A stretch of 64,000 bases of DNA from positions 10,739,206-10,803,205 of the forward strand of contig NC_053417.1 of assembly GCF_016859285.1 (NCBI RefSeq), read 5' to 3'. Under the pieces are notes generated by a model, which was not told the origin of the DNA, did not search any database, and saw only the letters and a program-made list of their open reading frames with translations. Source of the stretch: Xiphias gladius. Lineage: Eukaryota > Chordata > Actinopteri > Istiophoriformes > Xiphiidae. The first letter of the stretch is position 1. Each line of letters begins with the position of its first letter. Position numbers and translations under genes: made by a program. Positions 10,197-63,993 of this stretch are shown piece by piece.

Positions 10197-13100
10197 ATGT
10201 TTGGTGCTGTGTTTCTTTGCTTGGCTTGGCTGATGGGGCAGGTAACTGATGGGGAACTGGATTACATCTCTCAGGGACAGGGGATGCAACTGCTGGGCGA
10301 CTTCTCCATCGCTGGACTGTTTCCTCTCCACTACACGGATAGACCAAGGGCTAGTATGCCTGCTCTGGTTCCATGTGATGAGTGAGTTTTACTGCTTTCC
10401 TGGACAGTAAACTTCCAATTCCACTGATCAAATGCATCTCGTTGGTGGTGTGGCTTTAACATCATCCCAAATATTGTTGTTGTTTTTTTTTGTTTTTTTT
10501 TTATCATCTAATGATTATTACTTCACATTTTAATTAATTTTTCTTTTAACATGTTACCTTTTCTAGAGGTTCAACTAACAAACACGGCTTTCACCTGATG
10601 CAAGCCATGAGATTTGCTGTGGAAGAAATCAACAACAGCAGTGGACCACAGCCTCTTTTACCAGGAGTGAAGCTGGGCTACCAGATGTACGACATCTGTT
10701 CAGTGCCAGCCAGTGTCCTGGCCACACTGGACCTGCTGGAGCAGCAGAGCCAGAGCCCCTCTACGCCTGGGACAGAGGGAGACACAGACCCAGACTATGA
10801 GAACAGTCAAAGAGCAGTGGCTGTGATTGGGCCGGACAGCAGCAGCAAAACCTTCACCCCCGCTGCTTTACTGGGGGCCTTTTTAATACCACAAGTAAGT
10901 TTTAATCATTGCCCTTGAAATATGACCTGAAAAGGCCTGCATGCAACACAGAATCATTCCTCGCATCCTCTTTGTTTCATCGTAGATCTCTTATGAGGCA
11001 TCAAATGAAATGCTCAGCAACAAGTTCCTCTATCCAGCCTTTTTCCGCACAATTCCCAGCGACAAGAACCAGGTTGCAGCTATGATCCAGCTTTTAATTC
11101 GTTTCAACTGGACATGGATCGCTCTCTTAGGTAGTGACAACGCCTACGGCCTGGCGGGCATGCAGAGTCTTTCCAACCATGCGCCGCACCACGGCATCTG
11201 CATTGCCTACCAAGGAATCATCCCCTCACTCAGAGCTGACACGATCCAGACCATGAGGAACATGGTGGGGAAAATACTGAAGACCAAGGTCAACACCATC
11301 GTAGTCTTCTCCAGCAAGTCCAAACTCAGTGGCTTCTTCCCGTTTGTCATTGAGCGCAACGTGACAGATAAAGTGTGGATTGGGACGGAGGACTGGTCAT
11401 CAGCTACTCTTATATCAGGGATACCTGGGATCCAGACCATCGGCACTGTGCTCGGTGTGTCCATCAAAGATGCACATATTCCTGGTTTTGAGGACTTTGA
11501 GAGAAAGGTAGTTCAGGCTTCAGTGCAAGAGAATGACACCCAGAATGGCACCATAAGCCCAGACAATGCTTGTCTACAGAGCACAGACCTGTTCAGCCTC
11601 GCCAGGAAGAATTTCTCACTGGAGAAATATGACATTACCTCTTCCTTCAATGTGTATAAGGCGGTGTACGCCGTGGCTCATGCTCTGCACCAAGCTCTTG
11701 GCTGTGATTCTGGAGAGTGCCAAAGGAGGAGGGTGCATCCATGGGAGGTGAGCAAATGTAAACTTGCATTTTTGCCAAAGCAGAGAATCTTTCAGAACCA
11801 CAACTTGTTAAGCATTGGTGTTTCCTCTCTCCTCTCCATCTACAGCTTCTCTCGTGGCTTAAGAAGGTTCGATTCTCTCTGTTCAACACCTCTGTGTACT
11901 TTGATATGAATGGTGACCCGCCGACAGGATATGACATCGTCTCCTGGGTTTGGAGGGGGACAGACTGGTCTCTCAGAGTGGTGGGCTCCTTCACCCCAGA
12001 TCCCCTTAAGCTCACAATTGACGATGATCAAATTGAGTGGCACCAAACAGAACATTCACAACCAGTAAGAACAATGTGGAATAGTTTTCATTACACTGTT
12101 TGTAAAACTTTTGTAAAGCTTAAAAACTTTACTTTTCAACATGTTTCTTTTCACACGCTTTTTTTTTTCTTCCTTCAAGATCTCATTTGGTTCAAATATG
12201 TATGTATACTATTAGTGAGAAATTTGCAAAAGTGTTTATGAAAATATAAAATTGTAAAATGTAAAAAATATTGTTCTGATTTTAGAGAGGCCTGAACAAA
12301 TTCTAACCTTTTTAAAGGTGTATCTGATTGTTTCCAAAGCCGTCTATATGTGCTTTTGTGTGATTGCCTGTGTTTTGTTGTGTGTCTTATCTCTGTCCTT
12401 ATATCTGGAGATTTTGATCCCAGTAAGGTGACCTGATTAAATAAAGGTTATTTCTATTCTTTCTCAAACCCTGTTGCTTGCATGCAGGTGCCGTTGTCCG
12501 TCTGCTCAGCCCCATGCCCGAGGGGCCACAAGAAGGTTCTGACAGGGCAACACACCTGCTGCTTCGACTGCCAGGCTTGTCCTGCTGCCACATTCCTCAA
12601 TATAAGCGGTAAACTAAAGACACACACAGAGAGAGCAGGTTACAGTTCCTCTAGTGGTCTTTGAAGTCTTGCAGTTCTGTAACTTACGATCTTTTTCGTA
12701 TTGAATTCTACTCAAAACTCCGGAAGAAATTTCTTGCCAGTTTGAACAAAGTGTTGAACAAAATGATCAATACCCCAACACAGAAGTATTTTTTAGCTGT
12801 TGTCTGTGAGATTGACCAGCAGGTGGAGCATAATACTCACACTATGTGCTGATGCAGGAGCCAAACTGACTCAAGAGCCCTTTCGAAAGGATTCACTGGA
12901 TCTAACAACCTGTGATTTAAGACTCCTAACAAACGCTGCCAAGTGTTTTCTCTTCTAGACCGTAATTTTTAATCTAGGGATGACTCACTAACATTAAATA
13001 TGAAACCCATCGCACTGGACAAAACCCAGCTCAGGTTTTACATCCCTGGATTTCTCTTTAAATCTATGCCCTTTCTCTTCCTCAGAACCAACTACATGCC

Positions 13101-14011
13101 AGTCGTGCCTGCCGGAGCAGTGGGCTCCACGGAGCAGCGATCAGTGTCTGAATAGGACCGTCCTGATGCTCGCCTGGGACGCCCCCCTCTCCATTGCCCT
13201 GCTCCTCTTTCTGGCCACCTGTCTTCTCATGACCTCTGGCTCTGCAGTAATCCTCCTGCTCAACCTGAACACGCCTGTGGCCAAGTCTGCCGGAGGCCGC
13301 ACCTGCCTCCTGATGCTGGCAGCCCTGACTGCTGCTGCCATGAGCTCTTTGTGCCATTTTGGCCAGCCCTCTCCTCTGGCCTGTATCCTCAAGCAGCCTC
13401 TATTCATCTTTAGCTTCACTGTGTGCCTGGCCTGCATCACTGTGCGCTCCCTCCAGGTTGTCTGCATTTTTAAATTTGCATCCAAGCTGCCGGCGGCTTA
13501 TGACAAGTGGGCCAAAAAACGCGGGCCAGAGTTTACCATTTTCCTGGTGTCTGTCACCATCTTGCTCATTTCTGTACTCCGTGAGGCCCTCAACCCTTCC
13601 CAGCCGTCCGAGGATCTTGACTTCTACAAGGACAGCATTGTCTTGGAGTGCAGTAACACCCTCTCAGTCGGCACAGGCGTCGAGCTAACTTATTTCTTCC
13701 TGGTCAGCATCCTCTGCTTCTCTTTCAGCTACATGGGAAAAGACCTGCCAGCAAACTACAATGAAGCTAAGTGTGTCACCTTCAGCCTCATGGTGTGCAT
13801 GATCTGCTGGATTAGCTTCTTCACTTTATACCTCATCAGCAGAAGCCCGTTCACCATGGCCACACACGTGTTTGCCATACTTCTCAGCGTCCTGGCCTTC
13901 CTCTGCGGCTACTTCCTGCCCAAAATTTACATTATTGTCCTGAAGCCGCAAATGAACACGACTGCCCATTTCCAGAACTGCATTCAAATGTACACCATGA
14001 GCAAACAGTGA
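10197..14011 (+). CDS. tas1r1: Taste receptor type 1 member 1-like (class C GPCR), six exons, complete
   Basis: T1R1 pairs with T1R3 at the taste-cell surface to sense amino acids (umami). Exons: 10197-10381, 10567-10894, 10986-11747, 11846-12064, 12488-12608, 13086-14011. They total 2541 bp, giving 846 residues, the usual T1R length and six-exon structure. Residues 1-19 look like a signal peptide. Exons 1-4 encode the Venus flytrap ligand-binding domain (GLFPLHYTD, MRFAVEEINN, VIGPDSSS). Exon 5 and the start of exon 6 hold nine cysteines of the cysteine-rich domain. Exon 6 encodes seven membrane helices with NTPVAKSAGGR and the class C signature DLPANYNEAKCVTFS. T1R1 is favoured over T1R2 or T1R3 by stretches such as GIQTIGTVLGVSI and GYDIVSWVWRG, but paralogue choice needs a tree. 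Phases agree at all five junctions, with no stop or frameshift. Confidence 0.88.
12405..12452 (-). repeat. Teleost repeat fragment in tas1r1 intron 4
   Basis: On the minus strand this reads AACCTTTATTTAATCAGGTC followed later by GGGATCAAAATCT. It matches the motif at 9535-9575 in opposite orientation. It is a short degenerate tail with no coding content. Confidence 0.45.
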
Positions 14012-14310
14012 AGCATGTAATGAAGAGTAGCTACAAATGATGCTGGTCAACTACTGTTATCAGCCCAGGCTGAGTTTCACTTTTAAATCTATCTCACAGC
14101 TGAGTTGAAATGTTAATTGTATGTACACAAATGAAGTTGCATTAAATTGGTGTCAGTAGGGTAATTCCCTTTTCGCCGGACCTCGACTAGGAAGGTCAGT
14201 GGCCATGCTCACCTACAGATCAGCAACTGTGGCTAAAGTTTTAATCACTGAAGATCCAGACTTTTCAAGTATCCTTAAATAGGATAAATAAATAAACGTT
14301 ATCTCTGACT
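14012..14310 (+). terminator. tas1r1: tas1r1 3' UTR and probable poly(A) signal
   Basis: The stop codon is followed by about 270 bp of unique sequence. Overlapping AATAAA hexamers occur at about 14286-14297, suggesting cleavage near 14310. Confidence 0.5.
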
Positions 14311-14874
14311 AGTGTGCATTCGTTTGTGGAATCCAATGCTGCTGAAGAGAATCCAAGGGTAACACAGAGTGGTCTTTTTCCATCATAGCGCGCCCTGGTA
14401 GTTGTAGTAGGAACTGAAACACTAACACTGATGGTTGAAATGTTGTTTTTGTGAATACAAGTCAAGAATGTTGTCAGTGATGGGAGACCATTTCACTTGT
14501 TTCCAGAAGATTTTGGAACATTACCCAAACAGAACCGGTGCCTACAAAAATCAAGGAAATTATCTGATTAAAAGTGTTGATGTGTTGGAGAAAAGAAAAA
14601 TCTTTTCTTATCTTATGCTGTTGGTTTTGAGATTTTGATATTTGATAACAGTACCTGTAAAGCTTTTATGGTTTATAAATGTCAGCTTGGGTCAACAAAA
14701 CAATTGACATGATCATATTTCCAGGGATTCAACAAGTGGCAGCTGGTCTTAGAAAAAAAAGGTTTCAGAAAAGCACCATGACGTAACATCTCTTTGCATA
14801 TCAAATAAATACACAATTGGCCTGTCTTGTGTGTCTGTGTGTGTGAGTGCGTGCTTGGGTTTGTGTGTATGCGT

Positions 14875-14932
<58 letters not shown>

Positions 14933-14967
14933 AGCACATACCCACATACACACACACACACACACAT

Positions 14968-14999
<32 letters not shown>

Positions 15000-16090
15000 G
15001 CTGCTGTTGGCTGTTGTTTGAGAGGAGAGATGAAAAGGCCTTTTGTGGCTGAGAGGTCAACGCTATTGACCAGTAGATGTGTGAGTAGAGTCCAAGCTTG
15101 GCTTTCCCACAGTCTCTCTGTCCACTCACGGCTAAATACCCTGGGTCAACAATCGAAGTGTGCCATGGGTGAACAAGCAGGAGTTTTATTGTCAGCACTC
15201 CAAGCTACTGAGGAGGTTTTAGGATTTTTACCTCACAAGCTTTTTGATCAAGTGCATTTTGGAAAATTAATATTTATCATCATGCAGTGTTTAAACCATG
15301 TGTGTGTCGTCTGAAGCCAGAACCATCTTTCTCATGCTTCCCTCGATTAGTTCTGTTGGGAGTTAAGTTACAGATACAGGAGGACAGAGCAGTGTTCAAA
15401 ATGTGCTCCAAAATACTACAGCGAGACACCCAAGATGTCCTGCGATACAAACCAGAAATTTAAAATACATGCAGAATCAATTTTTACCCCTTTATCTGCA
15501 GCCTGGTACCAGCAGAGGTCAACAATTTCTAATGGTCTCATTTGATTCTCCTTTCCTGCTCCAGGATTCAACAAATCAAACTCTAGATGCTCATTAAATC
15601 TGCAGGTCCAGCAGAATTGAGTTTGTTGGTTTTTCAGTCCCTACATCATTGTTAGTTCATGTAATTTTTTCTAAATGGTGTCATTTCATTTGAAATGAAA
15701 CTTCATTTGTTACTGATATTAGAAGATGTATGAAGATGTTTGGGCAGAGAAAGTAAAGGAACAAAACCTGCAAAAATCTGAAATATCCAAATTAATGTAA
15801 TGGAAAGTCAAGTGACGGTCTTCTTTTCACAAATGTGGATTGTTTTACAGCAGTATTTGATGAATAATGAATTTACACTTTCAATGCCTTTTCCCTGAAT
15901 GCCGCCAATGCATTAAATCCTGTCTTTAATTGTTCCCTGGTTGCACATCAGGAGATGCCCATGTTACCCTGTGTAACTGGAGTGTGAGATAAGCAGCAGC
16001 CCCTGATAAGAGACTGACAGGATATCATTCCTAGTCTGATATATATCTCGGGAACGGTTTTATCTCCAATGGTCAGCCTGTGATTGCTTC
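14311..16090. other. Intergenic region between tas1r1 and the hes5 cluster
   Basis: Apart from the large CA tract, this stretch shows only short unsupported frames. Its right end grades into the promoter of the first hes5 gene, with an RBPJ/Su(H)-like TGTGAGAT at 15983-15990. Confidence 0.5.
14877..14998. repeat. Compound (CA)n microsatellite, about 120 bp
   Basis: Long runs of CA units are interrupted by short ATATACAAG and ATACCCACATA segments, and TG-rich sequence precedes them at about 14830-14875. The repeat creates spurious poly-Cys/Val and poly-His/Thr frames on both strands. Confidence 0.95.
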
Positions 16091-16257
16091 ACCTCTGAGT
16101 TATTGATGTGTGTCCTATTGTTACAAGCCTCAGCCCTGCCTGAGTCACATGGCTTTGTTATGCTAATATCTCCCTATAAAATGAGGAACAGCTCTTCCAG
16201 AGACATCAGAGCTTACAGTGTCATCCTGAAGTAGCCGCTCACTTCACCTGCACAGAC
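16090..16257 (+). promoter_or_regulatory. Promoter of the first hes5-type gene
   Basis: A TATAAAA box lies at 16175-16181, 83 bp before the ATG. Blocks upstream (GAGTTATTGA, CAGCCCTGCCTGAGTCACATGG, GGCTTTGTTATGCTAAT) recur in the same order, with small changes, upstream of the inverted copy at 19000-19200. Their conservation between copies suggests shared regulatory sites. Confidence 0.7.
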
Positions 16258-16861
16258 ATGGCTCCCTGCTCCACCAGCTACTCCTCTATTCACCACATCA
16301 GGATCTCTGAGAGAGACAACATCAAAGTGAGTACTGGATGGGATTTAAATGGTTTTGTGAAGCACAAATGTCTGATTGTTTATTACTGAATTGAATCACG
16401 AACTTACCAGGCTGTCTCCTCTTCCCCAGTTGAGAAAACCTATTGTGGAGAAAATGCGCAGAGACCGCATCAACAGCTGCATCGAGCAGCTCAAGATCAT
16501 CCTGGAGAAAGAGTTCCACAAGCAGGAGCCCAACTCCAAGCTGGAGAAAGCCGACATCCTGGAGATGACCGTGAGCTTCCTGAGGCAGCAGTTGCAGCCG
16601 GGCCTCTGTCGGAGCGACTATAGCCAAGGCTACTCTCACTGCTGGAGGGACTCTCTGCACTTCCTCTCTGCCGGCTCCAGCAAAGAGGCCACTTTCACCT
16701 CTCCGCAGGGCCTCCAGCAGAAGGAGCGGCACGAGCAGCCGCTCCATCAGGCCCAGAGAGGCAGCAGCTTCTCGCCAGTCTGCTCCACCCTCAGGCCCAC
16801 CACGCTGCAGGACAGCAGCAGCAGCAGCAGCAGCAGAGGCCCCGTGTGGAGGCCTTGGTAG
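16258..16861 (+). CDS. hes5-like: Hes5/her-type bHLH-Orange transcriptional repressor, inverted copy 1
   Basis: Hes5-type proteins are nuclear Notch targets that bind N/E-box DNA as dimers and recruit Groucho/TLE to block neural differentiation. Exons: 16258-16326 and 16430-16861 (501 bp, 166 residues). The basic region reads KPIVEKMRRDRINSCIEQLK, including the proline typical of Hes basic domains, followed by helix-loop-helix (ADILEMTVSFLRQQ). An Orange-like segment follows (DYSQGYSHCWRDSLHFLS). The last four residues are WRPW, the Groucho-binding motif. A serine run is encoded by AGC repeats just before the end. bHLH through WRPW is a single open frame, so only one intron is present, whereas mammalian HES5 has two as I recall. 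It is paired tail-to-tail with 18389-18999. It belongs to the hes5/her4/her12/her15 group; exact orthology is unresolved. Confidence 0.92.
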
Positions 16862-18388
16862 AGACTCTGTCCCACAGACACTGAGACCTGAGGGGAATCT
16901 GTTCTCTCCCTCACTAAGTAGGAAATATATTTCCAGCCTGCTCATTCATGGTGATATTGAGCGCTTTTAGTGGTTCATCATATTGATGAAAATATATGTA
17001 ATAGGTATTCTACCCTCTTAATAACAAGTTCACACTGGAGATATTCACTACACATGTGCACCACCAGTATCTTCATGCCTCAAAATGAGGTTATTATAAA
17101 TGTTTTTGTTCCTTTTTGTAACTGAAAGTGTATTCATTGTGTGTAGTTAAACCTGCTCTGAAGTTAAAAGTTTGTGTCACGTTATACTTGAAACCAGAGT
17201 GCTTTACCAAACATACAGTATCTGTTGTGACTTATTTGCCTTTAATAAATGAAGAAAGTATTTGGCAAAATGCCAAGAGACAGTAGCTAACAGTGTTGGT
17301 CATTTGTGTATGTTGTGTTTTCTATTGTAATGCATTACAGTGTAGATAAATGCTACGTATTAGAGATAGCATTTAATAGTGCTACAAACTGTTTACCATA
17401 ACTTAAATTTGGAAAATTGGATAACAATAAGACATATTTATCCATTTCTCTTTTCTTTATATTTTGTGTGGATCTATTAATTGTAAATACAGTGTGTACA
17501 GTTTTTTAATGGTTTAATTATTAATTAGAATCTCTGGATCAATAGAATTCAAATAAAAGGACATGTCTGTATTAGTATTTTAAGCCTTAATGCGACTTTT
17601 TACTTGAGTATTATGTATGTACAAAAAATAAAATAAAGACAAGCTCAGGACAGTTTTAATCCGAGGTTCATTATGGACATAGGCCAAAAGGCACTGATGT
17701 GAACATTTCCTTCATTTAAAAGGAGGGTCAACATTATCAAGAAGTTTCTTGAGTGCTCTGTACAAAAAATATAAATATTTACATTCCAATAAAAAATCTG
17801 GAATTAGCTTTTTTTTTAATGATTGTATCTTTTTATTGTAAATTGTCATACAAATGTTAGAAAATAAGTTTTAAGAGCCAGAATGTAATAGCAGAACAGC
17901 CATATCAACAAAATGTTAATATGTACATCCACTTGCACACACATGCACAAACACACACATCATCATTCTCATCCATAAAATTTGGCATAGATAATTCAAA
18001 AGAGAAGAGAAATATTCTCAACAGCAGCTGTCAGTATAACACAGTACGGCAGATATATATACTGTATATATCGTTACATCAAGCAGTCCAAAGATAAACT
18101 CCACTGGAGTAAACAATCATTTCACAAAGATTTGACAAAACCATCATCACTCAAAATCAACCTCCTGCTTTTTTTAAACACAAGGAAAAAGCTAACATCA
18201 GGTGTAAATCAAAGTCAGAGCAGGACAATCTTCAAATGAGTGAGAGCCTTCGCTTTTACTACTTGTCCATCAATGTGATGAGACAATAAGGAAACCCATC
18301 ATGAATGAGCAGGCTGGAAATATATTTCCTACTTAGTGAGGGAGAGAACAGATTCCCCTCAGGTCTCAGTGTCTGTGGGACAGAGTCT
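16862..18388. other. Convergent 3' UTRs and spacer of the inverted hes5 pair
   Basis: The first 89 bp after each stop codon are nearly identical in the two copies, ending at 16950 and 18300 with CCTGCTCATTCATG. The roughly 1.35 kb between is unique. Plus-strand AATAAA occurs at about 17243 and again near 17553 and 17626. A minus-strand AATAAA (TTTATT) lies near 17832. The two transcripts therefore converge without an obvious gene between them. Confidence 0.65.
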
Positions 18389-18999
18389 CTACCAAGGCCT
18401 CCACACGGGGCCTCTGCTGCTGCTGCTGCTGCTGTCCTGCAGCGTGGTGGGCCTGAGGGTGGAGCAGACTGGCGAGAAGCTGCTGCCTCTCTGGGCCTGA
18501 TGGAGCGGCTGCTCGTGCCGCTCCTTCTGCTGGAGGCCCTGCGGAGAGGTGAAAGAGGCCTCTTTGCTGGAGCCGGCAGAGAGGAAGTGCAGAGAGTCCC
18601 TCCAGCAGTGAGAGTAGCCTTGGCTATAGTCGCTCCGACAGAGGCCCGGCTGCAACTGCTGCCTCAGGAAGCTCACGGTCATCTCCAGGATGTCGGCTTT
18701 CTCCAGCTTGGAGTTGGGCTCCTGCTTGTGGAACTCTTTCTCCAGGATGATCTTGAGCTGCTCGATGCAGCTGTTGATGCGGTCTCTGCGCATTTTCTCC
18801 ACAATAGGTTTTCTCAACTGGGGAAGAGGAGACAGCCTGGTAAGTTCGTGATTCAATTCAGTACTAAACAATCAGACATTTGTGCTGCACAAGCTGATGC
18901 AAAACCATTTAAATCCCATCCAGTACTCACTTTGATGTTGTCTCTCTCAGAGATCCTGATGTGGTGAATAGAGGAGTAGTTGGTGGAGCAGGGAGCCAT
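18389..18999 (-). CDS. hes5-like: Hes5/her-type bHLH-Orange transcriptional repressor, inverted copy 2
   Basis: Exons: 18931-18999 and 18389-18817 (498 bp, 165 residues), on the minus strand. The protein has the same N-terminus (MAPCSTSYSSIHHIRISERD), basic region, helix-loop-helix, Orange-like segment and WRPW end as the plus-strand copy. The differences I can see are one serine fewer in the AGC-encoded run and Ser instead of Thr in KEASFTSPQ. The intron is almost the same, apart from an approximately 11-bp insertion near the middle (CATCAGCTTG). The same role as a Notch-dependent repressor is expected. Near identity through intron and 3' UTR points to recent duplication or gene conversion. 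Confidence 0.92.
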
Positions 19000-19200
19000 G
19001 TCTGTGCAGGTGAAGTGAGCAGCTACTTCTGGACGGCACTGTAAGCTCTGATGTCTCTGGAGGAGCCACTCCTCAATTTATACTGGGAGATTAGCATAAC
19101 AAAGCCATGTGGCTCAGGCAGGGCTGGGGTTCCCACACTCTGACCGGGGGGACTCCCAGCACAACAATGGACGACATGTCAATAACTCATAGGGCGTGTA
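19000..19200 (-). promoter_or_regulatory. Promoter of inverted hes5 copy 2
   Basis: A TATAAA box on the minus strand (19082-19077) sits 83 bp before the ATG, the same spacing as in copy 1. A Su(H)/RBPJ-type TGTGGGAA (minus strand, 19137-19130) lies 131 bp upstream of the ATG, as expected for a direct Notch target. Copy 1 lacks this exact site at the matching place. Confidence 0.7.
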
Positions 19201-22200
19201 TCTGTGTGTGGCATATTTCCCAAGATAAGCAACAGGTAATTAACACGTCATTTGAGAATTTATCATGGACTGATGGTCAGAATTGGACTTTTTAGATGTA
19301 TAAGAAGAAGAAGTGATACACAATCTTCAAAGGGGGGGTTGGGGGGCACTGCAATTAAGGACCAAATGCTTCACTGCAGTAAAACAATATAAACTGAAGG
19401 CTTTCATTTTCTCTTCAAAGACAGCTGCCCTTCCTAAAAAAAAAAAAAAAAAAAGAGAGAAACATTTTGGTGCACAGACAGGAGCATTTGAACACATGAA
19501 AAATGTTGTTTTCAGTGGAACAGGTGTCTCTTTCCTGTCTTGGCCACTGGGTCGTCACAGTTTGGTTAAAAATAAACCACCACAATAACGTGTAAAATCA
19601 GGAGGAGAGCGGGAGAGAGGACAGAGCAGGGAGGGCAGTCAAAGAGGGACCAGAGTGACTGGCTGCAGGTGAAACATTTCATCTTCCACCTGTTGCTTAA
19701 CGTTGCTGCTCCTGAACGTGAGGGTTTCCCACAGGACGGGTGTGCGAAGGAACGCTGTAGCAGTCCGAGGGGGAGACACTGATCAAAAGGCTGCTGCTGA
19801 CTCACGTCTCCCAGGTGCGAAAGCCATCACGCGGAGCACGTTCTCGGTGGCGCGAGGCGCAGGCCGCGTGCGGTGCGGTGGCGCAGTCAGTGCCAGAGGT
19901 GGGGTCTCGTGTGCATGTCATGACGCGCAGCATGGCTTTTTGATTCAGGTTGCCCCCCCCCCCCCTCCCCTCGCTGGGCTCATGCAGAAAGAAGAAAAAG
20001 AAAAAAAAAGGGGCGCAAAACGTGCCCCGTTGGTCAATTCATAGGGAACACAGCGAGCTCGGAAAGAAAGGAAGTCACATGATATCAGAAAATATTTAAA
20101 TTCTAACCATCGAAGCCCTGCATGAGTAGAACCGACAGCTATTGTACAGTATTTACATGGGCCTGGAAACAGGCCAGGAACAGGCCACGGCAGTCAGTTC
20201 ATCAAACTCTATAGTTTCCAAACTTCACTCCCTGTGGCCTAACAAAGGAGTCAGTGTTGATGACAGGAGATGATATGAAGACACCTGTACGGTTATGAGA
20301 GCATCCCTCATAGAGATTATGTTTGCAAACTATTTCACCAAAATGTATAATTGATTTTTAAAAGAGCCGTTTGTATTTTTTGGTACGCGGACCTGGATTA
20401 TTGTTGTCTTTAGTCAGTGAGTTTTTAGCGACTGAGTCCTGCTGAAAACTGTAGGCAGACTTTAATTATAAGCTCTTGTCTTACTTCTCCCGAGGGACCG
20501 CAGGCCCTGTTGTAAGTGAACTGTGTCAAATTAGTGTCAAGTTAATGGCATTATGAGAGGGCTGGCAGTGTGCCTCCGAGGGCCTCCATCCCTAGCTGGC
20601 CCCAGATGTGAAGCCGGCCTTGTGGGCGCAGTGTGAGTAGTCCCGTCTCCCTAGTTTCCCACCAATCCCCAACACCAGGGTAAATGACCTACAAAAGCCA
20701 TGTCGCTCCTCAGTGCTCCACTGAGAATGTTAATTGATCTTTTGTTGCAGGACAAACAGAAACTCTCTGTCCCGGTCCATCTGGGGAAAAACAAGTCAAC
20801 TGACTTTACTGCTTGGCACAGAGCAGTCTGTCTGCCTTTGGTCTCCGTTGACTTTTTTAATTTAAGGGTTCAGCCACCGATCTACAATGCTGAAAGAAGT
20901 ACTTTAAGTTTTAATTAAGTCAAAGAAGTAATGCCACAATAGAAATACTACTTCATTAAATTAAAAAAAAAAAAAAAGCAAAGCTAAAGGAAAAGGCAGA
21001 GGATCCACACACTGGCAACATTTCCATCCCAGAAAAAGTAAAAGTAAATAAGTATTAGCAGTAGAATGTACACAAAGGTGCTAATTGAGAGAAATGGACC
21101 TCATAAGAATGTTTGATTATTAATGCACAATAGATATCTGATAACTGGCAGGTTAATGCATGAAAAGTGAAACTCTCCAAAGTTGGAGGTAATGAAATAA
21201 TGGAAATCCACTAAATTGAAAATACACTATTACAGTTGACCAGTTTTCCATTAATTTTCAGACTTTCTGATCAGTTAAAGGGTCACATGATCTTTTACAT
21301 GTCGACATAATTCTCTAAAATCTTTTAAATAGGGTCAAAGATGCATTTTATCATCAAAACAAGGCTGTCGCAGTACTTGTGATAAACGGAAAAGTAGGTT
21401 TAGGTAAAGGTAATTCAAAGTGTTATAGGGACATCATTTTACAGACAATGTGATTAAAAATAAACTACAATGAATTTGATTAAATAATACAAGTATAAAG
21501 TCTTGCAAAATGGAAATATTTAAGTAAGGACCCAGCACTGTTCAGTCATACAGCAGAACAGCACTTGAGTAAATGTGCTATGTTGCTTCCTTCCTGTTTG
21601 CATCTGAGCAGGTTTGTGACCTGTTGGTATTTGTGGTGTCACAATGGTGCTTTAAATTTCTAACAAGGCACCTGCATCACATCCATTTAACCCAGATCAG
21701 ATACTGTATTTAGCATTAAAAACAATACTATCTCTTTTCGTGCTTTACGTTTGCATATTGAGGTATGTTGGTAAACATCTCTTCTACTTCTCTTCAGTGT
21801 AGCGTTTGAAAACACAGTAACTGCCAATCTGTCAAGTCACGTTTATGTTTGGCTTTATTATCTGTCCTCTCCATTGATTTCACTCTCGACGTGTTTGTGT
21901 GAATTTGTGCCTCCTCTGAAAGTTAGTGTGCACTACACGGCTCCTGGGGGTCTTTGTCTACAAGTGTGTGTGAAGACGAGTTCCCCTCCCACCAACAGCC
22001 TGAGAGCTCTGAATTCCTGCCATAAAGTCTCGGCCATCGCTCAGACCTGCAGCGGCACAGAGCGGCTTCCCATCAGCCATCTCTCTGTGAGTGTGGTATC
22101 TCCCGTTTCCCACACTCTGTGCCTATTCACTGGCCCCAAGACGGGAACAATAGAAGTGTGTCTTGTTACACATCACATTAGCTACGGTGTTTGATCTCCC

Positions 22201-23000
22201 ATCGCAGGGGGAGGGGAGGCAGCTTCAGCCAGACCATCTGGCCTGTCCAACTAGACCCTGAGAAAGTCCCGGGCATGCCACATTCTCCACAACTTCTGCA
22301 CACACAAATAGTTGTGAAAGACTTTTGTGGCACTTGAGACATAATTCAGGCACTAGACAGCATGCCACAACTACAACAACAGAAGTGGGCCGTGTGACAT
22401 AAATGGAGCAGGCGTGTCTCCATACTCCAGATTTTCAATTTCTTTTAAACACCTGTGCACCAGGAAGGTCAGATAAGATGAAACGTTAATGATCCCTGTG
22501 GGAAACACTGTATCAAGAAAAAAAATACGGAGTTAAAAGTATGAAAAAAAAGCACCACCACCTGTCGTTAAATTATCTGAAGAATGAATTCCCTGAGTAA
22601 TGTTAGTTATATTTTTTTTAACATGCATGTGTTTTGAACTCTTCTGTTGAAATAAAATCAGGCTTTTAAGATTGATGCAGTAAAAATGAATGCACTGATA
22701 GAATCAGTGCATGTCAAAACACAGATTTGCATCCATTACCGGTAGTAAGAAGTATGATGTTAAATCCAAATACTTTTGATGTACTGAACCGATACTCAGC
22801 TGCACTCGACCTGTGCATATAGATATTATTATGTTGTCTCATTAATTCATTCAGTCACTCAATGTTCAAGATCAAATGAACAGTCTTTATGTAAGATTTT
22901 CTACGTACTTTGACCTCTGTCACTCAGCGCTCAAGATTTCTGAATAAAGTAAAAACACCACTGTTGTTCATGTTTGCAAAACTTCATGTGAAGTTTTCTG
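19201..23000. other. Intergenic region within the hes cluster
   Basis: No supported gene. It contains poly-A tracts (19436-19454, 20961-20976), a CpG-rich block at about 19.73-20.04 kb with a run of C at 19951-19963, and moderately GC-rich stretches at 20.5-20.7 and 21.9-22.3 kb. A Su(H)-like TTCCCACA occurs at 22107-22114. The open frames here (for example 19703-20044 and 21874-22194) lack known motifs. Confidence 0.5.
19730..20040. promoter_or_regulatory. CpG-rich block without an assigned gene
   Basis: This segment is unusually rich in CG dinucleotides for the region (GCGAGGCGCAGGCCGCGTGC and neighbours). It lies about 0.75 kb upstream of inverted hes5 copy 2. It could be a CpG island serving a distal promoter, an enhancer or a non-coding RNA. 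No start site is recognisable. Confidence 0.4.
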
Positions 23001-23715
23001 TTTATTTTTTTTTTAAATGTTCAAACGCAAACTTCTCAAGGAAGCAATTCAACAGATTCTTTTAGTAAAGATTGATGTCAACATAAAATGCCTTTATAAA
23101 AGGTATTCATTTGAAGATGAAAAAACATCTATTATGAACATCACAACTGAACAGTTAGCAGGTACAATTTCAGCAGTAACACTCACTTCACACATAGGCC
23201 AAATAATGGTTACAAATAGTCATTATAAAGTATAATCATAACAAGATTTACAGTAAAAGTGGATCCATGGGATCCATTAATGGGATGTTGTTGCTTCATC
23301 AGCGCCAAGATGATCAAGGTATCAGTCAGTGATACTCAGTATCAAAGATAGACAGTGGTTTAAACACGTCAGTCAATCAGTGTCTCAGACACTTAAATAA
23401 TGTGGACTCACAAATAAAATCCAGGATCTGCTTTTCCAAAGGAACAATTGACACAATCACAGAGTGAACACTCTAAATTATATAGAGTATAATACACATG
23501 GTGTACATATTCAGTAAAACCTGAATCCTTTCAGTCCTTCCAAAGGAATACTGGGACATTGAGCCCATTTCGCCACACTAGTATAACACTTAACAATATT
23601 GAATCTCCTGCCAAAGCAAAATGAAACAGACTTCAGTGAGTCTTTAACTTTCTGTCCATGACATTCACAGACGTAGATCTCTTTCTGTCTTTGTGGAGGT
23701 GATGCTGCCTCCATC
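23001..23715 (-). terminator. 3' UTR of the third hes5-type gene
   Basis: About 700 bp follow the stop codon. A minus-strand AATAAA (TTTATT at about 23001) is a plausible poly(A) signal. I see no other coding content in this stretch. Confidence 0.4.
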
Positions 23716-23974
23716 CTACCAAGGCCTCCACAGACCACAGCTGGCCTGGCTCACACCCTTGCTGGAGCTGACCTGACGGAGAGGAGAGCCAGGAGGTGAC
23801 AGGGCGCAGGGAGCTTGGCCGGTCCTGCTGGACGCCTGCAGGCCCTGGAAGTGGCTGAGGAGCCGTCTGTGGGCCTGAGTCTGGACCTCGCAGTGGGACA
23901 GGAAGCTGACGGCCTCCTGCACGCAGCGGGAGTAGCCGTCGCTGGCCGTCGTCAGGCCAGAGGTCACGCTGACG

Positions 23975-24024
<50 letters not shown>

Positions 24025-24356
24025 CTGCTGCCAGCTTCTCAGAAAAGACACAGCCATCTCCAAGATGTCCGCCTTCTCTTGCTTGGAATCGGGCTGCTGC
24101 CTGAGGAACTCTGGACCCAGCAGGGATTTCAGCTGCTCGATGCTGGTGTTGATGCGGTCTCTGCGCAGTTTCTCCACCATTGGCTTTCTCAGCTGAAGAA
24201 AAGAAAAAGAGAAAACATTGAGTCCACTTGAAAACTGGAAACTTTTTTTATATTATTTGAACGCATCTCAACAAGTGAGCTAAGTGACTTTATAGAAAAG
24301 GTGTTTACCTTATGAGCAGGAGTCAGGTGTTCCTTAGAGAAAACAGTGGGTGCCAT
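23716..24356 (-). CDS. hes5-like: Hes5/her4-type bHLH-Orange repressor with polyglutamine tract
   Basis: Exons: 24309-24356 and 23716-24192 (525 bp, 174 residues). It begins MAPTVFSKEHLTPAHK and continues into a Hes basic region (LRKPMVEKLRRDRINTSIEQ). The helix-loop-helix contains LLGPEFLRQQPDSKQEKADI, which recalls zebrafish her4. An Orange-like segment (DGYSRCVQEAVSFLSHCE) and the C-terminal WRPW Groucho motif follow. Between bHLH and Orange lies a run of 15 CAG-encoded glutamines (23977-24021), preceded by QQK. It differs from the inverted pair in its N-terminus and linker, so it is an older paralogue. A TATA box and a Su(H)-like site lie upstream. Orthology among her4/her15/hes5 is not settled here. 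Confidence 0.91.
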
Positions 24357-24560
24357 AGCTGTAGAGTCAGCGCGTTCCTGCTTGGTTTGAAGAGCCAGTT
24401 GAATCTGAGCTGCCTTCTCCTCTGCCTCTGCCCTGTATTTATACACCCAAATCTCCATATGAATGTGTGGGTCTTGGGCTTGTTGGAGTTTCTCACAGTC
24501 CCCGGGCCAATGAGAGCGCTGGGAAGGGCTTTGAGGAACGCAGGGCTGCCACATGCTCAA
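24357..24560 (-). promoter_or_regulatory. Promoter of the third hes5-type gene
   Basis: The minus strand has TATAAATA at 24443-24436, about 80 bp before the ATG. It also has TGTGAGAA, fitting the Su(H)/RBPJ consensus YRTGDGAD, at 24497-24490, and a nearby CCAAT (24510-24514 plus). The layout matches a direct Notch-responsive hes5 promoter. Confidence 0.6.
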
Positions 24561-25700
24561 TGAAGTGTTTATAGCCGTTGGGACAATGAGTGTGTCTCCG
24601 GGGAGCAGGTGGAGGAATAGACTGCGAGAGAAAGAGCCCAGGGTGGAGGGGGTGGAGAGGGAGGAGGGGCGGTATAGTTGGGAGACTGACCCAGTGCTTG
24701 TGTTGATATGGGAAAGTGGTGACCCCAGAGGGAAGCACGCTGCTGTCTCATGTCATCTCCGCCGCCACGTAATTGAGCACAAAGTGCCTCCGCCACCAGG
24801 CACACGTGGGTGTTACAGAGGGCCAGCCATTAGAAAAGATCTACACGCAGCCATTTCCACCAGTTTGACACGGCAGACTTCCCTCATGGAGCAGTGCAAC
24901 AGTTGACATGTCTCAGAGATGAATTTAAAAAAAAGTTTCTCTGCAAGTTTCGAGGTTGAAAAAAATAAATAAATTTCTTAAACTGTGAATTTAACCTTTC
25001 AATGAGGTTTTAGCACACACACCAAAATATTCTGTAAATTTACGGTCATGAAAACCTGTTTTCTTATTAAGTTACGTAATAAAAGTGCTGGAGAAACACT
25101 ATTAACTGTCAAAATTAGAGCAATCTTGGATCTTTCACATGATGTATTTCTATATTTCTCTTTTGTCTGTGCTCTTCTCACTGGTTTGGAGCGGGCAAGG
25201 TGATGTCTGGTATTATCATGGATAATAATTCTCCAAAATGCTGATGTTTTCCTTAGTTTTATTACTTAATTGTTGATTATTCAGTTACCATCTAGTTTTA
25301 TTGAGAAAAATACAAGATACATTTTCAGGTGCTTTAAAATCATCACTATACCATTTAATAATAAAGGGTTAAAATGACTCTAGTTTAAATAGTCTTTAGC
25401 CATATAGACAAACAGTACTCCACCTATTACATGTAAAGTCCAAATAAGTGTCAATGAAAAATCAATGCCAACACTGGATATTTTATTTTGAAAATTACTT
25501 GGTGGCCATCCTTTTGAAGTTCAGCCTGTCCACTTTAATTTGATGGTAGATGAACATGATTTGAACTGTAAGAGAAGAAAAGTTCTTCAACTGTAAACCT
25601 CCCAACACTCACCACACTCCAAGCACATGTTCACACATCAGACAAACCCCCAAATACCCACACAGACAGCCACACTCTCCTCGCTCACTTTCCCTCCCAC

Positions 25701-25709
25701 ACACGCACG

Positions 25710-25743
<34 letters not shown>
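25701..25743. repeat. (CA)n microsatellite
   Basis: A CGCACGCACG lead-in is followed by uninterrupted CA units up to CAGCTGG. Confidence 0.9.
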
Positions 25744-25744
<1 letters not shown>

Positions 25745-25941
25745 CTGGCTGACCTGCCCACCGCTGGCCACGTCTCAGTCACACGCTCTCTTCCTGCCTG
25801 TGTGGAACGTGGGAGCCGCTGTGGTCCCAGGCTTCCCACACTTCAGTGTTAATGACACTGAGGCCGGCTGCACAAAGGAAGTGTGCCCCATCGAACAAAG
25901 ATTGAGTGACCAACCCCACCCCACCCCCTCCCACCCCCTCC

Positions 25942-25989
<48 letters not shown>
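25942..25989. repeat. (CA)n microsatellite
   Basis: About 23 uninterrupted CA units lie roughly 200 bp from the preceding tract, after a CCCCACCCC-rich segment. Confidence 0.92.
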
Positions 25990-25990
<1 letters not shown>

Positions 25991-26764
25991 GGGAAAACAG
26001 GGCTGTCAACAGGGCTTCCAGGCACACCATCTGGACGGATTGTACGCTATTGTCAGCCAATCAAGCATAGGAGACATTCACCGTGAGAATTGGAAAGGCT
26101 GAAATAGAGACAGAAAGTTAAATAAGAAGAATAGGGAGTGTGTGTGTGTGGAGGGTGGGAAACGTTGAGGACAGTTTGATGGTTTGTTTTCAACGTTTCT
26201 AAAAATCATATAGCGTGTGAGACAAACAGTTTTCTAAGTTGAGAAAAAGTGAATATTGTTTCACGTCATAAGATTGTTCGAACAGAAAGAGGATTTGGGA
26301 CAAAATAAACAACAAACACACAAATGTAACAAGTAATAACAACATAAGACACTTAAGGATTGGCAGTTGTGATTAAGTCTTGTCTTATAGGCACTACTTC
26401 TTTTAAAATTAATCTACTACTGTAAATTTTTAGAGTAAAATAGTGGAAGCTCATGTTACGTGCCATTCAGCTTTAGACTTAACATCTCTGTCCACCACCT
26501 TGTTAAATGGACAGAGAGACTCCTTGTAAATGGACGTCCTTCCATTCCGTGTATGCCGTCCTCAGGCAGATGTTTTTCCATCATGTTCCCACCACATATC
26601 ACTACCGGTCCATACAATAACGCAGATATTTCCCTTTTTGTGGTGCATCAGCTGAGCGACAAGGGGCCAGCGAAGGGCCCCTCCCACCTGTTTGTTTGGA
26701 TTGGGGCCATTGTGCCCCATGAATTCAACTAATTCATTCACATCCTATTGTCATAACACTGCTT

Positions 26765-26860
26765 TGTGATTGGCCAACCACTGTGAGAACTAGCATCACA
26801 TGAAATCGATGGGAAAGTTGGTATAAGTATATAAAGGATGGAGGTCTTGGTGAGTAAAAT
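26765..26860 (+). promoter_or_regulatory. CCAAT/TATA promoter of the small two-exon gene
   Basis: An inverted CCAAT box (ATTGG, 26769-26773) is followed 55 bp later by TATATAAA (26828-26835). This predicts a transcription start near 26860 and a 5' UTR of about 70 bp before the ATG at 26933. Confidence 0.65.
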
Positions 26861-26932
26861 CAGTACCCTGAACGCCTCTTGTATCCCACACAGACCTGGA
26901 CTGACTGTACACCATCTGACTTCACATTCACC

Positions 26933-27952
26933 ATGAGGGATCAGCACACAACGTAAGTTCAAATGGAGAAAACTCATCCATAGAAGTAGTTAATATTATT
27001 GATCTTCAGCTCATCTCCCTTCCTTAAATTGTTTTTTCATTTAAGGTCATCCCAGGGTCAGGAACATTTTGGTGTTTTGGTTTTATAAGGTTATCAGGGC
27101 CCTGATTTTTGCCTTGTTGGTGATACAGAAACTTGACTCCCAAGTAACACTTATCAATGCTGATTGAAAGTTCTGGTTTTGGGGCAGATGTTCAAAATGA
27201 TCTGTTACAAGGGTCAGGTCACCCAAGTGAACAAAAAACATTTTATCGCTTGGGCATGGTGGGATTTATGTTTTGGTTATGTTTGCCCAAGGTTTGAGAT
27301 TACCGGTCTCTCCTGATTCAGTGGAGGTGAATTTCCACATTTCCAATTCAAAGAACCTGCTGAATAGTTTTTCTGTATTTCCAAAGAAAACTCTTCACAG
27401 AGAGGTCTGTGGACTATTCAGAGTATCGTGAATACTGATTCAGTGTTATGAGCATCACAAATGAAATTCCATTCATCTCATTTGCATTGGGGGCAGCCGG
27501 AGAAATCCCACACATTGATCTCTGAACATCTGAACAAATAAAAATCTGTCTGCATGGCTTGATACCAGTATTGCTAAGGAAGAAAATGTTGCTTTTTTTT
27601 AATTTGGGTGAACGAACCCTTTAAATAAATTAAGGATTTCTGATAACTTAAAAGTGCTGTCTGTTTTGCATATCCAACATTCATCTGATGTTTCCCGTCC
27701 TTTCTCCTCAGCAAATGTAAAATGATGATTTTGGAGAGGAAGTGCACAGACAGAGCGGTGAGGCTCCGCTCAGCCCTTGAGAGCCAACTCAACAATGGGG
27801 TGTCCAGCTCTGATATGTGGGACAAGACAGTCTCATTCTTCACAGTGAAGAAGGCCTTGATTTTCCATAATGGCTACACCAAATCCTCCAGAGAGGCCAT
27901 GAGGCTGTTCCCCTCACCCGCAGAGGACGTGGTACCACTTTGCTGCCAGTGA
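26933..27952 (+). CDS. Small two-exon gene encoding an unrecognised 86-residue protein
   Basis: Exons: 26933-26952 and 27712-27952. The first ends AC|GTAAGT. The second follows a pyrimidine tract and CAG. The joined frame starts MRDQHTTKCKMMILERKC and ends DVVPLCCQ. I do not recognise the protein. It has no signal peptide or membrane segment. It is basic near the N-terminus, with a possible helix (TDRAVRLRSALESQLNN), and has a central hydrophobic-basic stretch VSFFTVKKALIF. That stretch lines up with the FYHSKRRLIF tail of the CDK inhibitor p21 but lacks the Q and M of a true PIP box. The CCAAT/TATA promoter, consensus splice sites and AATAAA at 28485 support a real gene. The family is unknown. 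Confidence 0.68.
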
Positions 27953-28510
27953 GAAGTGGACACACACATGAAGACAACGAGAAATGAGATATAACATGTG
28001 GGTGTGTGTTTGAATATCTACAAGCTCTGAAGCACTAAGCATACTGGCACCATGTCAAGAAGTTCTCCATGGAAAACATTTTTCAAATGGAAAAAAGGAC
28101 AGTAAATAAAAATAAAAAAAAAGGAAAACTTTTTTTCACTCAACACTAAGTGTAAAAGGTAGAAAAGATGGGAGTTTTATACCCCTCATCTATGACCATA
28201 TACACTGTGAATTTATATGTCCACAAACAGGCCTTAAAATGTGCATTTTATACCTTAAGCCTTAGTACTCCTTATCACTGGTCACTTAAAGACCACGTTG
28301 TTGAGGTTTTGTTAACTTAAAGCCATATTCCTTTGTATAAAGGGGAAGTGTTTATGCCAATGCATACTTTGTTTTATAAATGTTTTTATGACATTGTGAA
28401 TGATGTTCGTTTTAATTGTTAAGTATAAAATGTCTTGCTGAGAGCCATAAAATGTGCAATATGTGCTTTCATATACGAGTTGAAAATAAACAGTTTATGT
28501 CAATGTTTTC
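27953..28510 (+). terminator. 3' UTR and poly(A) signal of the small gene
   Basis: About 530 bp of AT-rich sequence follows the stop codon and ends with AATAAA at 28485-28490, then a GT/T-rich stretch (TTTATGTCAATGTTTTC). The transcript would span about 26.86-28.51 kb with one 759-bp intron. Confidence 0.65.
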
Positions 28511-29260
28511 TTTACTGATTGTGTTAGAAGTGGTTATTTCCGGTTTATTTTGGCCAGTCAGTTTAAAATGCAAACTTTAATGTGTTCAGTGTGATTGTTT
28601 ATATTTAGGCTTTGTATTTTATTCACAGTTAACACTGAAAACAGGGAACAAGTTCACATCTCAGAGTCTTAATGAATATCGCCCTCTAGTGGCCTTTATT
28701 CAGCAATACCTTAAGATATTATCCACACACTAACAGCTTTGTCTCCCTGGACTCTCATGGTCCCAACTGGTCTGTGTTGTTTTAAGACAGACTTGAAAAA
28801 TTGCAAACCTATCCTTTAAATTATGGCAGTTTGGCCTGGAGATTCAAGAAGCAAAGCAGGGAGGTTGCTGTTTTGGACCAAACAATCAGCTGAGGTGTTT
28901 AACAGCTTTCAAAATGTAACGGCTCTGTTTGCACAAGTGCTATACACTGCATACTTTGCCCCTTGATGCTTCTAAAATAAATATGTTTTAAAGAAAACCT
29001 ACAAGACTAAACAAACATGACTTCATTAGTTACCTGATCTGATTGGAAATCAAAAACCCATTAGATTTTAAAAAAAATGTATTTATATTCTGTGCCTCTT
29101 CACAGGACATTTTAACAGCAATGACTTGCACCGTCACTTGACGAGTAGCTTTTTTTTTTTTTTTTTTTTTTTAAATGGGGACACAGCAGACGATACATCT
29201 TTTTTAAGAACGTATACTGCAGCGGGAACAGAAGAGGTTACCCTGGATCAGATTTGGAAT
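28511..29260. other. Spacer between convergent transcription units
   Basis: This lies between the small plus-strand gene and the 3' end of ubr4. It contains a T-run at about 29151-29172. No gene is seen. Confidence 0.5.
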
Positions 29261-30714
29261 TATTACTGCTTTATTAATCATTAGCTAAGTTCAAAAAGCA
29301 GACATTCAGCAACAGTTTAACATTGTAGCAGCGGGAATAGGAGAATTAACAATAAACTGGGTGAACTCCAAACCATGCATTCAGTTCTGGAGTTATAAGG
29401 ACACCTTTTATAACTGTCTAAGTTTAAAAGTTGATCCGTCACTGAAGAATAAAAGTCAGTGGCACTTTGCTTTCCAGAAATCTTTTGTCCAGACTGTTGC
29501 CAGTGATTCTGGGGAAAACCAAAATCTAAATCCGAGAGTTCAGAGGCCTGAGAAATAAAGAAACTGCTGGGGAAGAAAACAAACTGAACGACAAAACAAT
29601 TAGTCAAAGAAAAAAGTGTTTAAATATGTAATGTATGTCTGTTTTATTATTAATTTAGACAAGTCTGATATTTCATTGCAACAGATGGAATCTTTCACAA
29701 GTCCAAAGTTCACTTTGTCACCAAGGCATAGCTTTATGGAAAAAATAAAACAAACTCTTATTCATTGTTCTTCTCCTCACTTTGCTTCAGAGGTTGATAA
29801 AAGAAACCTTACACATACACACTAAATCAAAAAACTTTTTTCTGTCCATCACTCAAATTCCAGTTAGAACCTACATGAAGACCGAACAGCAAAAGCCTGG
29901 AAGAAAGGACAGGTTAGCTTGTAACCATGTGACACTGAAACCTTCTGCCATTTTAAAAAGCCCTGACCAAAACAAACTTAAACCAAACAAACAAAAAATG
30001 AAATCAAGATAAAATCAAATGCCACTCGTAATACGTGGTGGGTCAAATCCCCAAAATGTTTTAGTTATCGTAACATTGCCCCCCAATATTGGGGAGGGGG
30101 GGATCAAAAAAACGATGTCCACCCTAAAACAGAATTCACGAGTTATTCCCATCAACTTGACAACTCTTTTCTTTTTTAAATATCAATAACCACATTTTCT
30201 CAGCCCACCATTCTATGACAACCTTTGATATCCTTAAGACTGAACAATGGTAAAGCTTCAGGTTTGTTTGCGGTAACAGTCGTGAACCAGAAAATACACA
30301 AACTTTTTCTGGTTTAATGCTCAGCAGAGTCCCAGATCTCTTGTCTCAAGCTTGGCGAGAAACTGAGTTATGTCCTCAACTCTACACTGAAGCAGTCTGA
30401 ACCAGAGGGGCAACACGTAAAATTCTGTTTTAGTGTGTTCCCCCCACCCTTTAACAGCATTGTGTTTTTGTGTTAAAAGTTATAGAGATGTTGCCAAAAG
30501 TGGATGATTTTTTTTAGACTACACATAGATTCAGCTTTAAGTTAATTTGAAGATGTCATATGGGAGAGGGAGGTGAGCAGGAAGCATGGTGTATACTCTG
30601 TGTATGTGTGTGTCAGTGTGTAAAAAGAGAAAATTATTTTTTTCAGTTGGTAGGTGTCCCAATGTTATTTGCAGGGCTGTTGTGTGTTGGAGGGATGTGG
30701 GCTGACGTTGGCCA
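29261..30714 (-). terminator. ubr4: Probable 3' UTR of ubr4
   Basis: The ubr4 stop codon is at 30717-30715. A minus-strand AATAAA (TTTATT at 29270-29275) would give a 3' UTR of about 1.45 kb. Another candidate lies near 29642. The short open frames here have no motif. Confidence 0.4.

Positions 30715-63993
<33,279 letters not shown>

Follow-up and report, generated by a model that had tools for sequence, protein, structure and literature searches.

How two neighbouring genes can share nearly identical bodies beneath clearly different promoters is the question raised by a pair of hes5-type genes, copies A and B, in the Xiphias gladius genome (690.8 Mb in 1298 contigs). The window analysed here is a 64-kb stretch of contig C18 (positions 10739206-10803205), and its features are collected in Table 1. 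The initial annotation had described two basic helix-loop-helix (bHLH)-WRPW genes lying tail to tail and proposed either very recent duplication or continuing gene conversion. Our comparison favours, with considerable confidence, an older inverted pair whose gene bodies would have been homogenised by non-allelic gene conversion, while the promoters and distal 3' untranslated regions (UTRs) diverged outside the tract. Conversion in an older pair is preferred because similarity changes abruptly within the 5' UTR, residual homology persists outside the near-identical core and a second tail-to-tail pair lies in the same gene order elsewhere in the genome; one past tract would suffice, with no need for conversion to be "continuing".

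The tail-to-tail arrangement holds. Both reading frames are intact and end in WRPW, and the inverted arms align in blocks of 479 nt at 99%, 138 nt at 99% and 230 nt at 93%. The bHLH of copy A matches Pfam HLH (50.8 bits, E 1.5e-13), while Pfam Orange gave no match to copy A at E 0.001 and scored the third hes5-type gene of the window, gene C, at 24.5 bits, slightly below the cut-off of 25.3. The two proteins are distinguished by S7N, by a T-to-S replacement and by one serine codon within a run of serines, the last reflecting an indel in a CAG/CTG microsatellite near the C-terminus (16813-16836 / 18414-18434). None of the 103 synonymous sites has changed, giving two amino-acid substitutions to zero synonymous ones. 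The introns, 103 bp in A and 113 bp in B, are nearly identical as annotated, but they differ by a net indel of 10 bp, not about 11 bp, plus 2 substitutions. The TATA-to-ATG spacing of 83 bp was measured in both copies, in agreement with the annotation.

The differences between the copies are distributed very unevenly. Across the core there are 5 substitutions in 714 aligned bases, one 10-bp indel and one 3-bp indel, the substitutions per aligned base being 1/69 for exon 1, 2/103 for the intron, 1/429 for exon 2 and 1/92 for the shared 3' UTR, compared with 9/81 from TATA to ATG and 6/49 in the 5' flank. The first 89 bp after the stop codon (16862-16950) are identical, as originally noted, and are followed by a single mismatch at 16951. 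The best change point falls at 16237, with 15/109 differences before it and 5/714 after it, and none of 20000 permutations was as strong; noncoding positions alone gave 15/109 against 3/216 (6 of 20000 permutations). The change point, noncoding sites included, thus indicates that the 99% block starts within the 5' UTR of two longer homologous sequences. Uniform identity, as expected of a recent segmental duplication, is broken at this point, and the paralogues are far more alike in the tract than in their homologous flanks, as expected of conversion. Near-neutral core sites (20 bp of 5' UTR, the intron, 89 bp of 3' UTR and synonymous sites, excluding the 16951 mismatch and the intron indel) have changed at 2/315 positions (95% interval 0.08-2.3%), against 15/110 upstream. 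The promoter blocks, annotated as shared, are indeed homologous but 88% identical (115/130) and not near-identical; the promoter, which is probably constrained, is many times more diverged than the near-neutral core sites.

Similarity had also been described as ending abruptly at the inner edge of the arms. The drop at 16953/18297 is sharp but does not reach zero, as 18 of 22 positions match shortly beyond it. Under two scorings, the number of shuffles, out of 3000, that reached the score of this match was 1 and 0 for flanks of 60 bp, 8 and 1 for 100 bp, 21 and 5 for 150 bp, and 89 and 35 for 200 bp; among 5000 real nearby sequence pairs, 6 and 2 reached it at 60 bp, and 94 and 30 at 150 bp. 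Upstream of the promoters, the score of the outer blocks was reached by 0 to 7 of 2000 shuffles, depending on length and scoring. A 99% core within 88% flanks, followed by scraps of homology, points to a conversion tract in an older pair, since recent copying predicts a clean single-level edge. The annotated 1.35-kb unique spacer was recovered between the arms, and alignment of its halves (650 bp) gave similarity at chance level (109 and 127 of 300 shuffles). AATAAA occurs in it at 17244, 17552, 17627 and 17788 in the sense of A and at 17837 in the sense of B. Because these motifs of both copies lie between the arms, read-through into the opposite arm to form hairpin RNA is not expected as a rule.

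A genome search with the 479-bp core, in which the best candidates alone were scored across the 1298 contigs, returned 21 matches: A and B themselves (99-100% identity), a further 16 that extend over 160-260 bp with 73-82% identity, and three short matches of 42-52 bp (85-92%) that lie outside the 18-gene promoter survey described below. On contig C21, two of the hes5-type genes, P1 and P2, form a second tail-to-tail pair, with arms of ~1.19 kb, of which 896 bp were reported as 100% identical, including ~545 bp of promoter, and a spacer of 4.3 kb. No homology above chance was found beyond these arms, so that a recent duplication would look the same there as conversion reaching as far as the homology does. 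A tight cluster of changes with indels between P1 and P2 (C21:431099-431112) shifts the P1 frame, being either real or a consensus fault. The gene order on C18 is A (+), B (-), C (-) and gene N (+), and that on C21, read backwards, is P2 (+), P1 (-), a third hes5-type gene P3 (+) and N (-). The order of pair, third hes5 gene and gene N is therefore kept at both loci, with the third gene and N oppositely oriented, and this arrangement suggests that the two loci descend from one locus already in this order, possibly with the inverted pair.

In a tree of 18 hes5-type genes from this genome, built on 159 bp of bHLH, A grouped with B and P1 with P2, the members of each pair being identical over this stretch, and the two pairs joined at 92/89 on a branch that was not starred (0 of 6 inner branches were). 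The expectation raised by the annotation, that paralogues cluster together, was thus borne out within this one genome, where they cluster by locus. Between A and P2, its closest relative outside the window, 9 of 45 same-residue bHLH codons differ silently, and the similarity of the introns of A and C is that of chance (score reached by 982 of 1000 shuffles). These data indicate that neither class of site is frozen in the family, and that constraint is insufficient to explain the identity of A and B.

The promoters were compared using the Su(H)/RBPJ consensus YGTGRGAA, with sites read from the sequence alone. Matches lie at -138 and -734 in B and at -141 in gene C, while copy A has none within 1 kb upstream and one at -1154. 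The proximal site stands 55 bp from TATA in B and 54 bp in C, and in 20000 shuffles of the upstream regions of B and C, sites with distances equal within 1 bp never arose. Indeed, a Su(H)-type site was found 54 or 55 bp upstream of TATAAA in 17 of the 18 hes5-type genes examined, the exception being A. In a three-way alignment, B and the C21 promoter both carry TCAGAGTGTGGGAA, at which place A is gapped and different, and the outer homology block lies 28 bp closer to the ATG in A than in B; these two observations indicate that the site was lost on A's side. Polarised changes in the -130 block number 7 on A and 2 on B, with 6 unassignable; a 260-bp comparison, in which large parts align poorly, gives 29 on A and 20 on B, with 24 unassignable. 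None of the 18 genes has a reverse-strand YGTGRGAA within 800 bp of exon 2, head-to-head paired sites (SPS) being sought by eye alone. Copies A and B probably yield nearly one protein under different Notch inputs, and A would respond to Notch less than B. The mammalian Hes5 promoter also contains an RBPJ site (PMC7685452) with the same consensus, TGTGGGAA. The present case differs in that the site keeps a distance of 54-55 bp from TATA in 17 genes within a single genome and has been lost from one.

Several other explanations of the near-identity were weighed. A very recent inverted duplication of ~0.8 kb without conversion, followed by rapid promoter change, would account for bodies with 2/315 near-neutral sites changed and is in keeping with the clean edges of the C21 pair. 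We consider it unlikely, because the promoters are homologous but 12-14% different, weaker homology extends outward on both sides, and the promoter and flank would have had to change while the intron, 3' UTR and synonymous sites together took 2 or 3 changes. An assembly or polishing artefact, in which the reads of one copy corrected the other and made the bodies falsely alike, could be suspected from a core exceeding short-read length and from the clustered, frame-shifting differences of P1, which resemble a consensus fault. The copies nevertheless have different flanks and promoters and are told apart by 5 substitutions, an indel of 10 bp in the intron and another of one codon, no additional near-identical copy was scored in the 1298 contigs, and a palindrome arising from a missed adapter would lack the unique spacer of 1.3 kb, which makes an artefact very improbable. 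Strong purifying selection on an old pair, with no homogenisation, fits the family-wide conservation of the bHLH but is scarcely credible, given that the intron, the 3' UTR and the synonymous sites match as closely as the protein does, that amino-acid substitutions outnumber synonymous ones 2 to 0 and that other members of the family do differ in their introns and synonymous codons. A variant compatible with conversion is that the C18 and C21 pairs formed independently after the loci had separated, each then being converted, to which we give slightly less than an even chance. It agrees with the A and B promoters being closer to each other than to those of C21 and with the single her12 on zebrafish chr23 (PMC10112928), whereas both pairs are tail to tail, and at each locus the pair is followed first by a third hes5 gene and then by gene N, the latter argument being qualified by the opposite orientations of these two genes at C18 and C21.

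Homogenisation of an older pair remains our preferred explanation, and the following points weigh against it or against parts of it. The C21 pair by itself could be a recent duplication. The -130 block matches at 115/130 between A and B, but at 64/105 and 69/105, respectively, against C21, which implies that the pair is younger than the split of the loci or that an earlier conversion extended over the promoters. The 17 site-bearing promoters are not independent, because 12 belong to array copies and P1 equals P2, and they reduce to about five distinct ones (B, C, P3, P1/P2 and the array). Polarised changes in the -130 block are too few to show unequal rates. The inner residual homology is 22 bp long and its significance fades as the flanks lengthen, so that it is supportive, not overwhelming. 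The evidence comes from one genome and one haplotype, and age is therefore inferred. Finally, the regulatory split may matter little, as deletion of all nine Notch-dependent her genes in zebrafish was reported to leave both neural stem cells and the formation of progenitors unaffected (PMC10112928).

Under the homogenisation model, the arms of the close inverted repeat would pair and be repaired from each other. The last effective tract would have begun in the 5' UTR, ~20 bp upstream of the start codon, and ended ~90 bp beyond the stop codon, and divergence would have continued in the promoters and distal 3' UTRs outside it. B retains the hes5 promoter plan, with the Su(H)/RBPJ-type site 55 bp before TATA, while A is without the site and 28 bp shorter there, the predicted outcome being two nearly equal repressors differing in Notch dependence. 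Because the arms are inverted, an inter-arm crossover would flip the spacer and swap the distal 3' UTRs and would harm neither gene. If neutral rates in fish of a few per billion years hold here, the 2/315 near-neutral changes suggest that the last homogenisation occurred within roughly a few million years. From these comparisons we infer conversion as the cause, its recurrence, and a pair predating the split of the two loci. The fullest version of this history, in which the tail-to-tail pair predates the split (perhaps at the teleost genome duplication), conversion at both loci has held the two bodies nearly identical from then on, and the C18 promoter escaped to give a Notch-tuned and a Notch-detuned promoter for one protein, is tentative and less likely than not.

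The neighbourhood bears on the identity of the genes. The neighbours of the pair are vertebrate genes, namely a taste receptor of T1R1 type at 10550-14011, for which T1R1 was the best match (E 1.7e-119), and UBR4, which sits beside EMC1 on the human map. In zebrafish, emc1 and icmt flank the her4.1-4.4/her12 cluster on chr23, and chr11 carries her2/her15.1/15.2 (PMC8320183). Taken together, the two neighbours and both maps point to a chr23-type locus in the window and to A and B as her12-type genes. The her15.1/her15.2 link drawn in the initial annotation is thus probably indirect: a her12-type identity is more likely for the window pair, with the pair on C21 as the tentative counterpart of her15.1/15.2.

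Clustered, near-identical hes5-type copies are familiar from zebrafish her4.1-4.5/her12 (chr23) and her2/her15.1/her15.2 (chr11) and from teleost and frog hes5 clusters. A group of nine specific to stickleback has been reported, together with five almost identical copies in zebrafish for which a recent origin by tandem duplication and a dosage role were proposed (PMC3396596). Unlike the zebrafish clusters, the pair here is inverted, and it is probably a her12-type gene that has doubled. Zebrafish hes5-type genes are Notch-dependent in the nervous system (PMC10112928, PMC11394890), and in presomitic mesoderm her12 and her15 are cyclic as well (PMC10859470). The available portions of PMC8320183, PMC3396596 and PMC10112928 held nothing on gene conversion, a body/promoter break or one-copy loss of the Su(H)-TATA arrangement, and literature searches on hes5/her4 gene conversion, judged partly by titles, found no report for hes5 genes. 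Gene conversion as a mechanism is itself already known. In Drosophila, the coding regions of the Amy and Hsp70 duplicates are converted and their flanks have diverged, resembling the restriction to the gene body seen here, with control regions diverging; the present case differs in gene family and in that the diverged element is a Notch-type site. In primate Y palindromes, conversion between the arms is ongoing (PMC3403216), and they likewise have inverted arms more alike than their flanks around a unique spacer. In contrast to those palindromes, the arms here are 0.7-1.2 kb long, lie on contigs of 30-33 Mb and contain a developmental regulator, and the comparison is within a single genome.

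Beyond the pair, a second group of hes5-type genes on C21 (6964998-7015329) comprises 12 copies resembling gene C; we take gene C and this array to be her4-like. With one copy taken as reference, identity to the remaining 11 is 95.8-99.7% over exon 2 and 97.5-98.5% over the 200 bp preceding it, but 83.4-98.4% further upstream and 69.3-99.6% after the gene. Exon 2 identity exceeds that of both flanks in 11/11 copies, barely so in copy 4 (99.7 vs 98.4 and 99.6%), and exon constraint may contribute to this pattern. An exon 2 stretch with GYSRCVQEVAHFLS, Orange-domain-like by eye, is present in the last two array copies and missing in 10 of 12; among those ten, the copies at 6976434 and 6990277 lack the WRPW end through a different frame or stop, and that at 6982320 ends in WGPW. 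Gene C has a long glutamine run immediately past the bHLH (~23970-24030, minus strand). Moreover, a 116-bp stretch 1.5 kb downstream of C (22083-22198) is 74-78% identical to elements spaced along the C21 array (11 hits) and is a possible conserved regulatory element. In the genome search, gene N had three matches, each at a hes5 locus: in the window, at C21:424105-424347 and at C21:7008029-7008265. No relatives were found in viral contigs, bacterial or archaeal genomes or plasmids, as expected for a vertebrate gene, and an Rfam scan of 14000-32000 at gathering thresholds gave zero matches.

Table 1. Features of the hes5-type loci; positions refer to the window unless C21 is given.
Feature	Position	Strand	Remarks
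Copy A, hes5-type bHLH-WRPW gene	16258-16861	+	exon 1 16258-16326, intron 16327-16429, exon 2 16430-16861; 166 aa
Copy B, hes5-type gene	18999-18389	-	exon 1 18999-18931, intron 18930-18818, exon 2 18817-18389; 165 aa
TATA box of A	16175-16181	+	-83 from ATG
TATA box of B	19076-19082	-	-83 from ATG
Su(H)/RBPJ-type site of B	19130-19137	-	TGTGGGAA; 55 bp upstream of TATA; absent from A
Putative homogenised core, arm A	16237-16953		717 bp; exons, intron, 89 bp identical 3' UTR; partner 18297-19020
Putative homogenised core, arm B	18297-19020		partner of arm A
Promoter/5' UTR of A beyond core	16128-16236	+	15/109 positions unlike B
Promoter/5' UTR of B beyond core	19021-19129	-	from change-point analysis
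Inner residual homology, arm A	16967-16988		18/22 vs arm B; 13 bases past core end
Inner residual homology, arm B	18268-18289		7 bases past core end
Outer residual homology, arm A	16092-16122		upstream of promoter
Outer residual homology, arm B	19163-19193		upstream of promoter
Unique spacer	16954-18296		1343 nt; 31% GC; interpreted as the diverged 3' UTR tails of A and B
Gene C, third hes5-type gene	23716-24356	-	most similar to the her4-like C21 array; TGTGAGAA 54 bp upstream of TATA
Gene N, open frame	27689-27949	+	small protein exon; no Pfam or PDB match
P1, hes5-type	C21, ATG 430748	+	tail to tail with P2
P2, hes5-type	C21, ATG 436361	-	tail to tail with P1

If conversion explains the near-identity of such copies, then copy-by-copy dating and orthology of the her4, her12 and her15 genes would be unreliable. 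Conversion would keep the duplicates interchangeable as proteins with their control diverging, and the redundancy of Notch targets would be preserved at the protein level while regulation can split. Moreover, because 17 of the 18 genes keep the Su(H)-type site 54-55 bp from TATA and A alone has lost it, the family would offer a sharp test of the role of the proximal site.

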